DNA from: Ardenticatenaceae bacterium
Lineage (GTDB): Bacteria > Chloroflexota > Anaerolineae > Promineifilales > Promineifilaceae
DNA: 64,000 bases
Direction: 5' to 3'
Assembly (NCBI GenBank): GCA_011525915.1
Contig: WYBM01000015.1
Coordinates: forward strand, 1-64,000
Shown here piece by piece: positions 16,740 to 19,559 of the stretch. The position numbers and the translations under genes are program-made. The notes below the pieces were generated by a model. The model ran no database searches, was not told where the DNA came from, and was given only the letters and a program-made list of their open reading frames with translations. Position 1 is the stretch's first letter, and every line of letters starts with the position of its first letter.

Positions 16740-16788
16740 CTATTTTTTGGGGTCTTTGGGATCTCACAGACAAGAAGAAGGAGCGTCC

Positions 16789-18192
16789 ATGGAAAAGTTA
16801 ACACCCCCTGTTGCATCAGGCGCCAAGCCCCTGCTGGGCCATGCGCTGGAATTTCAGAAAAACCGGTTCACCCTGTTGCAGCGTGGCTATCGGGAACATG
16901 GGCCCGTGTTTAGCTTGCGGCTGTTTAAGCAAAACGTGGCTGTGTTGGTGGGGCCTGATTTGCAAAAGACATTTTATATGGAAACAGACAAAAAGTTGGG
17001 CATAGACAAGGTATATAAGTCATTGCGGGCCATGTTTGGGGAAGTGTTGTTTATTGCTCCGCATGAGACCTATTTGCAGCAACGGCCGTTTGTTGTGCAG
17101 GCATTCCGGCGGCAAAAGATGCTGCATTATATTAAAGTCATGCAAAGTGAAACCCAAAAATGGCTTGACTCCCTGGCTGACGAAGGTGAAATGGAAATAA
17201 CCGCCGAAGTGGGGCGGTTGGTGCAAGAAGTGGCCGGGCACGCGTTGATGGGACAGGACTTTCAAGCAAAAGTAGGGCGGGAATTCTGGGAATTGTATCT
17301 GGACGTGGGCAAATCTCTGGACCAGGTGTTGCCACCCAACTTGCCCCTGCCCAAATTCCGCCGCCGTGATAAGGCTAAAGCGCGTATGCGTGACATCTTG
17401 CAGCCCATTATTGCTGAACGCCGGCGCCACCCACAGCAATATGATGACTTCTTACAGGATTTTGTGAATGCCCAGTATGAAGACGGCCGTGTCATCGAAG
17501 ATGATCTCTTGTTGGGTCTGGTCATGGCGCTGATGTTTGCCGGGCATGAAACCACGGCCGGGCAGGCAGCCTGGACGGTCATTATGCTGCTGCAGCACCC
17601 CACCTATCAGCAGCAAGTGCAGGCAGAAATTGCCACCCACCTGCCTTATGGCCACCCCTTAGAGCCGCAGGTGATGGCCCAGCTAAAACATATCGGTTGG
17701 GCTATTACAGAGGTAGAGCGGCTGTACCCTTCGGCGGACCTGAACATGCGTACCGTGGAAGAAGATGTAACCGTAGGTGACTACCTGATTCCCAAAGGCT
17801 GGCTGGTGCAAACAGCAGCGGAATTGGCGCATAAACTGCCGGCGTTGTGGACGGCTCCGGAAAAGTTTGACCCGCTGCGTTATGCCCCGGGACGCGAAGA
17901 AGATAAACAACATCGCTTTGCGCTTATTGGTTTTGGCGGTGGTGTCCATAAATGCACCGGCATGAACTTTGCCAATAATGAGATGATGGTGATAACCGCT
18001 TTGCTCTACCAACAGTTCGATCTAGAACTGGTAACAGAAGAGACAGGCATCGAGCGCAGCCTGGGGGCCAACCGGCCCACTAAAACCATCGTCCGCTACC
18101 GGCGCAAACCACTGGACCAGTTGGTTTCACCGACCCCCGCAGCTTCAGCCGGCTGTCCGCATATTGCTGGTGCACAGGTGGCACCATCATGA
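16789..18192 (+). CDS. Cytochrome P450
   Basis: A 467-residue heme monooxygenase. The I-helix oxygen-activation motif AGHETTAGQ, the K-helix ExxR in EVERLYP, and the heme-binding loop FGGGVHKCTGMNF with Cys389 (codon 17953-17955) are all intact. Overall it resembles the CYP51-like clan of bacterial P450s. There is no N-terminal membrane anchor, so it should be soluble. The start at 16789 has AAGGAG upstream. No ferredoxin or reductase lies next to it. It is followed by a redox protein (selenoprotein) and a nitrilase; an oxidative detoxification role is inference. Confidence 0.93.
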   Translation: MEKLTPPVASGAKPLLGHALEFQKNRFTLLQRGYREHGPVFSLRLFKQNVAVLVGPDLQKTFYMETDKKLGIDKVYKSLRAMFGEVLFIAPHETYLQQRPFVVQAFRRQKMLHYIKVMQSETQKWLDSLADEGEMEITAEVGRLVQEVAGHALMGQDFQAKVGREFWELYLDVGKSLDQVLPPNLPLPKFRRRDKAKARMRDILQPIIAERRRHPQQYDDFLQDFVNAQYEDGRVIEDDLLLGLVMALMFAGHETTAGQAAWTVIMLLQHPTYQQQVQAEIATHLPYGHPLEPQVMAQLKHIGWAITEVERLYPSADLNMRTVEEDVTVGDYLIPKGWLVQTAAELAHKLPALWTAPEKFDPLRYAPGREEDKQHRFALIGFGGGVHKCTGMNFANNEMMVITALLYQQFDLELVTEETGIERSLGANRPTKTIVRYRRKPLDQLVSPTPAASAGCPHIAGAQVAPS

Positions 18193-18239
18193 GCGCCGTT
18201 TTTGAGCATACCAAGGAGGTATCATGGCTAAAAAAGTAA
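18189..18239 (+). CDS. Possible 16-residue coupling ORF
   Basis: An ATG overlapping the P450 stop (ATGA) opens a 16-codon frame that runs over the ribosome-binding site and start of the selenoprotein gene and ends at TAA 18237-18239. It could couple translation of the two genes. There is no evidence that the peptide is functional. Confidence 0.25.
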   Translation: MSAVFEHTKEVSWLKK

Positions 18240-18805
18240 AGATCAATCAACCTGCCCCTGATTTCGAACTGGAAGACTTCCACGGGAAAAGCACAAGACT
18301 CTCAGAGTATCGTGGCCAAAAGCATGTGCTTTTGATTTTTAACCGCGGCTTTGCGTGACCATTCTGCCGCGCGCACATGGCACAGTTGTGCCGTGATTAT
18401 GATGAATTTGTAAACCAACAGGCGGAAGTGGTGGTCATTGGCCCGGATGATGCTCAGGCATTTCAGGAGTATTGGCAGCAGGAAGAAATACCTTACATAG
18501 GGCTGCCAGATCCTGACCATGCTGTCTTAAAGCTCTATGGCCAAGAAGTAAAGCTGTTTAAGTTTGGCCGGATGCCTGCCCAGGTCATCATTGATAAAGA
18601 TGGTATCGCCCGCTATGTTCATTATGGGCATTCGATGAGCGATATTCCTGAAAACGAAGACATTCTGGCCATTTTGGCAGAGCTTAACGATGAAGAAGAC
18701 GCCCCTGATTTGTCTGAATCCGGCAAAAAAAGTATAGTGCCGGCCACAGAATCAGCTGAGATGGAGGCGCATGATGAAACTGAGCATTTCTCTGGGGCAA
18801 ATTGA
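18224..18805 (+). CDS. Peroxiredoxin-like selenoprotein with in-frame UGA (Sec45)
   Basis: The frame opens at ATG 18224 behind AAGGAGG and reads through one UGA at 18356-18358 (codon 45) to TGA 18803-18805, giving 193 residues. The N-terminus, NQPAPDFELEDF then GQKHVLLIFNRGFA, is an AhpC/TSA thioredoxin fold. The residues after the UGA are PFCRAHMAQL. Relatives read RGFWCPFCRAH, so the UGA replaces the first, catalytic Cys of the CxxC. A strong hairpin follows 17 nt later (18376-18395), as expected for a bacterial SECIS. The protein would reduce peroxides or act as a thiol oxidoreductase with selenocysteine. It follows the P450 and overlaps the nitrilase start. A nonsense mutation or sequencing error is the alternative. 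Confidence 0.83.
18376..18395 (+). promoter_or_regulatory. Candidate bacterial SECIS hairpin
   Basis: CATGGCAC pairs with GTGCCGTG (eight pairs, one U-G wobble) around the loop AGTT, which carries a G near its 5' side. The loop begins 25 nt after the UGA codon, inside the coding region. Stem, loop and distance fit the known bacterial SECIS pattern that binds SelB. Confidence 0.75.
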
Positions 18806-19559
18806 TGTCAAGTTGGGAGAACCTCATAGTAACCTGACGGCCGTGCAAACGATGACGGCTGAAGCAGCCCGGCGTGGTTCTGATATCATTGTCTTCCCAG
18901 AATTATGGTCAACGGGGTATGACCTGGAACATGGGGCGCGTTACGCCACGCCCACAGATGCCGGTATGTTTGCGACGGTGGCGGCACTGGCAAAGGAGCA
19001 CCACATTAGCATTTTAGGCTCCTGCCTGTCAGATTTGGGTAACGGGCGCATTGGCAACACGGCCGTCTACTTTGACAAATCCGGTCATCCCCTGGGCAGC
19101 TACAGCAAAACCCACCTGTTCCGCCTGATGGATGAAGACCGCTACCTGTCGCCTGGTGACGGCCGTACCCTGGTTAAAACCGAATGGGGCCTGATGGGGT
19201 TGGCGATCTGTTATGACCTGCGCTTTCCGGAATTGTTTAGAGCCTATGCCCTGGCTGGAGCCCAGCTTGTTTTTTTGCCGTCTGAGTGGCCGCATCCCCG
19301 GCTGGCTCACTGGCAAACGCTGCTGCGGGCGCGGGCCATTGAAAACCAGATGTTCCTGGTGGCTTGTAACCGTGTGGGCCATTCCCAGGGGACCGACTTT
19401 TTTGGGCACTCTTGCATGATTGATCCCTGGGGGGAAGTGGTGGTTGAAGGTGGGGAAGGCGAGATGCTGTTGACGGCTATGATTGACCTGGCCAGAGTCA
19501 ACGACGTTCGCGCCAAAATCCCCATCTTCAAAGATCGCCGCCCGGATGTGTATGCCTGA
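18774..19559 (+). CDS. Nitrilase-superfamily carbon-nitrogen hydrolase
   Basis: A 261-residue amidase-type enzyme. The catalytic triad is visible: Glu in IIVFPELWSTGYD, Lys in YSKTHLF, and Cys in GLAICYDLRFPELFR. The length and motifs fit omega-amidase/YafV or related small nitrilase-branch amidases rather than true nitrilases. GGAGG lies 6 nt before ATG 18774 (a second ATG at 18771 is closer). The first codons overlap the end of the selenoprotein gene by ~32 nt, so the genes are co-translated. Omega-amidases hydrolyse the oxo-amides made by glutamine transaminases, and an aminotransferase lies upstream, but a link is speculative. Confidence 0.9.
   Translation: MKLSISLGQIDVKLGEPHSNLTAVQTMTAEAARRGSDIIVFPELWSTGYDLEHGARYATPTDAGMFATVAALAKEHHISILGSCLSDLGNGRIGNTAVYFDKSGHPLGSYSKTHLFRLMDEDRYLSPGDGRTLVKTEWGLMGLAICYDLRFPELFRAYALAGAQLVFLPSEWPHPRLAHWQTLLRARAIENQMFLVACNRVGHSQGTDFFGHSCMIDPWGEVVVEGGEGEMLLTAMIDLARVNDVRAKIPIFKDRRPDVYA

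Follow-up and report, generated by a model that had tools for sequence, protein, structure and literature searches.

Selenoproteins with a Prx-like fold are already known. A "Prx-like thiol:disulfide oxidoreductase" of the PF00578 family with a UxxC or UxxU motif is predicted with high confidence in a 2026 review (Table 1, PMC13188914), "Prx-like 1" with pfam00578 and UxxC is listed in PMC2398784, and a Prx-like selenoprotein of Asgard archaea, prxL, has been described whose SECIS is located in the 3'-UTR (PMC11227280). For bacterial SECIS elements the published constraints are a loop of 3-9 nt with G within its first two positions, a stem of 4-16 bp, a spacing of 16-37 nt from the UGA and a minimum free energy of <= -7.5 kcal/mol (PMC13188914).

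The window analysed here, the whole 64,000-nucleotide stretch of DNA, carries a gene that is better read as belonging to this already known UxxC Prx-like selenoprotein family; it stands out in that Sec is used almost exclusively and that the evolution of its SECIS can be read from the sequences. With the family of PMC13188914 and PMC2398784 it shares the Pfam family, the UxxC motif and a bacterial SECIS just 3' of the UGA. Compared with that family (representative WP_010940744.1, likened by description), the window's subclade is almost purely Sec (112/114 loci), has a near-invariant SECIS and comes under no NCBIfam cut-off, there being no NCBIfam model that accepts the window protein at its own cut-off. 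Among NCBIfam models the window protein comes nearest to the SelL-related NF040769, which all 55 members scanned match; the window protein reaches 86.9 of the 120 bits required by the cut-off, over residues 9-106 only. Unlike SelL, which has two Sec in UxxU, the window protein is UxxC, the codon at the second position being TGC. The Asgard prxL proteins (L066-L068) are 35-37% identical over the whole domain and have Sec at the same codon, with UPYC in most, but they differ from the window gene in that the in-frame hairpin is absent, as expected for archaea; a bacterial gene with an in-frame SECIS is thereby linked to an Asgard Prx-like selenoprotein with a 3'-UTR signal. One lokiarchaeal protein (L067) has UPYA, without the second Cys. 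Searching the literature for selenocysteine in Anaerolineae brought up no title or abstract describing the window's family there.

The features of the locus are the following, in window coordinates.

16747-18192, plus strand: cytochrome P450 gene, upstream of the Sec gene, a neighbor that is not conserved.
18213-18219, plus strand: Shine-Dalgarno sequence AAGGAGG, read directly from the sequence, 5' of the start ATG at 18224.
18224-18805, plus strand: predicted Sec-containing Prx-like gene of 193 residues, UGA being read as Sec, with its stop TGA at 18803-18805.
18356-18358, plus strand: predicted Sec codon UGA, residue 45, first position of UxxC.
18365-18367, plus strand: Cys48 codon TGC, second position of UxxC, aligned to the AhpE peroxidatic Cys.
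18376-18395, plus strand: putative SECIS hairpin with an 8-bp stem and the loop AGUU at 18384-18387, assigned from the constraints, conservation and covariation.
18377-18805, plus strand: short ORF of 142 aa from standard gene calling, its ATG lying within the SECIS stem.
18771-19559, plus strand: carbon-nitrogen hydrolase gene (nitrilase superfamily) overlapping the 3' end of the Sec gene, a neighbor conserved within the genus only.

With a probability of about 95%, the gene is predicted from its sequence to encode a full-length selenoprotein in which UGA is read as Sec with the aid of a SECIS. Translation of 18224-18805 gives MAKKVKINQPAPDF...FNRGFA-U-PFCRAHMAQLCRDY..., with the motif GFA-U-PFC, and apart from the in-frame UGA at codon 45, which the sequence-only reading had correctly located, the frame is intact from the ATG at 18224 to the terminal TGA. 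The PF00578 (AhpC-TSA) domain spans the UGA, covering residues 7-131 with an E-value of 3.8e-24 when Sec is read as Cys and a score of 85.4 bits, above the gathering score of 26. The same reading had the conserved frame extend to residue 193; this holds for the PF00578 domain but not for the last ~30 residues (about 160-193), which are unconserved. It had also foreseen that a short-frame annotation would hide the first 51 residues with the active site, and standard ORF calling does yield only the 142-aa frame from ATG 18377, with residues 1-51 lost. Standard annotation would give a truncated protein without the active site here, and probably also in ~100 related genomes.

The product has a Prx-like fold with a thioredoxin-style UxxC. 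An AlphaFold model built from a 55-sequence alignment (pLDDT 90.4, pTM 0.80, the C-terminal tail at low confidence) places residue 45 immediately before helix 46-57, so that U45-P-F-C48 stands at the start of helix alpha-1, and Foldseek ranks peroxiredoxins highest, Bcp and AhpE among them, with target-normalised TM-scores up to 0.91. The fold is that of the Bcp/PrxQ/AhpE peroxiredoxins (PDB 3drn, 3hjp, 4x1u), but the active site differs. In a profile alignment to AhpE and Bcp1, R41 takes the place of the signature Pro and U45 that of the signature Thr, so that of the Px3Tx2C peroxiredoxin signature only Cys48 is retained, at the position of the peroxidatic Cys in AhpE (Ser in the Bcp1 entry), and the Sec lies three residues before the peroxidatic position. 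Two columns are invariant in the family, R41 and residue 45 (Sec read as Cys). The label "peroxiredoxin-like" given in the sequence-only reading therefore stands for the fold, whereas for the active site the UxxC makes an oxidoreductase the better reading. Since U45 stands where peroxiredoxins have the Thr and Cys48 where they have the peroxidatic Cys, a Sec-based Prx-like thiol:disulfide oxidoreductase is, on the strength of these alignments, the probable function in preference to a dedicated peroxidase.

That the protein is instead a true Sec peroxiredoxin in vivo, reducing H2O2 or organic hydroperoxides and not acting mainly as a thiol:disulfide oxidoreductase, seems rather doubtful, even with its best structure and sequence matches among Bcp, AhpE and PrxQ-type peroxiredoxins and with Cys48 at the peroxidatic position. 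Besides the lost signature, the column of the peroxiredoxin active-site Arg falls on M117, with the near-invariant R116 adjoining; the UxxC resembles the thioredoxin/ResA type, which matches as well; and the near-invariant Pro118 appears to be like the thioredoxin cis-Pro. 

As a thiol:disulfide oxidoreductase, the protein would use its Sec45 selenol to attack the substrate, a disulfide or a peroxide. Cys48 would resolve the intermediate by forming a Sec-S-Cys bond, and the Sec45/Cys48 enzyme would be recycled by a reductant of the thioredoxin type; this full catalytic scheme is put forward as reasonably likely, and the Sec45 protein could reduce peroxide as well.

In a set of 148 near genomes, a match at E <= 1e-20 is present in 52 and has the TGA form in 51 of these. 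selA is found in 50 of the 51 genomes with the TGA form; the exception (G026) has no selA match but does have a tRNA-Sec at 71.9 bits. The co-occurrence of the TGA form and selA has a Fisher p of 0.001, a value that ignores relatedness and incomplete assemblies. A wider set of 114 related loci with a score over 200, a few of them duplicates (L062 and L082 share one protein sequence), comes from Chloroflexota, KSB1, Desulfatitalea and Lokiarchaeota, and codon 45 is TGA in 112 and TGC/TGT in two. Judging by the best named matches, the source of the window most likely belongs to the Anaerolineae, a class of Chloroflexota. The claim that relatives have Cys at the UGA site consequently needs to be divided: the close relatives have UGA, and it is distant forms, L101 (41% identity) and L119 (37%), that have Cys at the Sec position. 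In L101 the codon is TGC, CAACTT replaces CAGTTG, and there is no stable hairpin (-1.3 kcal/mol). L101 may be a Sec-to-Cys reversion or an outgroup, the AU test giving p 0.80 when the Sec rows are constrained to one group that excludes L101. In the genome of L101 (G367) the apparent break in selA is an artefact, the gene crossing a run of N, and the tRNA-Sec match is tRNA-Ser according to ARAGORN. Set aside as a locus without TGA was L065, a frame-disrupted copy located where a MAG contig ends (L065:3100-3160), which may be a decayed gene or an assembly error.

The hairpin is as the sequence-only reading described it, starting 17 nt past the UGA and made of an 8-bp stem with an AGUU loop, and it agrees with all of the published bacterial constraints: the loop is 4 nt with G second, the stem 8 bp, the spacing from UGA to loop 25 nt and the folding energy -11.8 kcal/mol. 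An Rfam search with the hairpin returned no family, only a chance match. Its conservation goes beyond the needs of the protein. In the 88 loci that share the same register, the two loop codons are CAG in 88/88 and TTG in 87/88, as against a background outside the loop of the same genes in which CAG makes up 64% of Gln codons and TTG 18% of Leu codons. The stem also covaries beyond both controls: within the 6 innermost pairs, pairing holds in 98.9% of cells and 12 are double-compensated, compared with 95.6% paired and a mean of 1.2 (maximum 5) double-compensated cells in shuffles, and with 18-65% paired when partners are slid. In the window and L131, GGCGC/GCGCC has become GGCAC/GUGCC, a G-C to A-U replacement with both sides changed, and the tree makes the A-U pair of the window and that of L131 separate changes in two lineages (2 changes). 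Other compensatory pairs are GGUGC/GCACC in L061, CGCGC/GCGCG in L107, L108, L126, L133 and L134, GACGC/GCGUC in L083 and L125, and CACGC/GCGUG in L135. Such double substitutions preserve RNA pairing while sacrificing protein sequence: Arg-to-Cys in the window and L131, where in the window the family-conserved Arg is given up (MAQLR to MAQLC), or Ala-to-Val together with Arg-to-His in L061.

These observations bear on the possibility that the UGA is a true stop, so that the locus would be either a pseudogene or misassembled, or would encode a short protein restarting at ATG 18377. Mechanical ORF calling does give the 142-aa frame from that ATG, but inspection of the sequence 5' of it reveals no Shine-Dalgarno, the ATG falls within the SECIS stem, and the short form would be without the active site; moreover, the N-terminal 44 residues are conserved among relatives, and TGA recurs at this codon in separately assembled genomes from different phyla. 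On the strength of that conservation a pseudogene or sequencing error was rejected, and a true stop in any form is very improbable.

The selenoprotein reading is supported by the genome (7.46 Mb in 106 contigs), in which a lack of selA, selB and selC would, as the sequence-only reading had laid down, have refuted it. A tRNA-Sec gene (69.2 bits), called tRNA-SeC by ARAGORN with anticodon TCA (DNA) or UCA (RNA), selA (568 bits) and selB (331 bits, on the window's own contig) are present, as is selD (380 bits). SelB with Sec-tRNA-Sec would read the codon-45 UGA as Sec, the hairpin that starts 17 nt past the UGA serving to recruit it. Genome-wide reassignment of UGA to Trp, Gly or another residue would equally have the in-frame UGA read through, but is negligibly probable and, as general recoding, rejected on account of the termination of both the Sec gene and the P450 gene at TGA, besides having against it the complete Sec machinery, the Cys at this position in Cys homologues and the coupling of the UGA to a hairpin. 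By its sequence the selD gene is a selenoprotein gene too, since its motif CAGUASK contains an in-frame UGA; it lies 5-6 kb from selB (G000:C6:304783-305715, L069) and is accompanied downstream by a hairpin whose loop is G-rich.

In one Anaerolineae clade the SECIS appears to have changed its place. A single supported clade (SH-aLRT 99) of 19 loci (L064, L084, L085, L087, L088, L091-L095, L097, L099, L121-L123, L136-L139) has UPYCRAQLARL in place of UPFCRRHMAQL, and a hairpin GCGCGC-AGUUG-GCGCGC with a median of -11.9 kcal/mol. The loop of most family members coincides with Q54-L55 and lies 25 nt from the UGA; that of the shifted loci begins 16 nt past the UGA, 9 nt nearer than elsewhere and at the shortest allowed spacing. 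The Gln-Leu encoded by the loop would thus have moved three residues along with the shifted SECIS, as judged from the aligned sequences. Four of the shifted loci have the loop CGUUG, which encodes Ser-Leu. It is plausible, and on balance expected, that the SECIS and not the enzyme function fixes several amino acids near the active site, and that the element can move. The family is a clean natural data set for the evolution of bacterial SECIS elements under the joint constraints of RNA pairing and protein sequence, one that includes convergent compensatory changes and a positional shift.

The sequence-only reading had combined the P450 and nitrilase genes under a TetR regulator into a detoxification operon. 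Within flanks of about 1.5-3 kb, however, P450 and TetR genes are beside none of the other loci, and a nitrilase-family gene adjoins the Sec gene in three loci of the same genus (81-82% identity) and in no other. The neighbors not being conserved, the detoxification operon is unsupported, and as a general context for the gene it was rejected. The Sec and nitrilase genes overlap by ~35 nt, by way of the unconserved C-terminal extension (window 18740-18805).

Matches in a promoter scan did not clearly exceed those in shuffled sequences. A terminator-like inverted repeat, CAAAAGCATGTGCTTTTG, is found at window 18317-18334, within the coding frame and 21 nt 5' of the UGA, and is probably due to chance. 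The same genome contains a second Sec-type paralogue of 182 aa (G000:C37:54655-54978; L021:1489-2037), which has TGA at codon 45 in the motif LAULPC and is 33% identical to the window protein.
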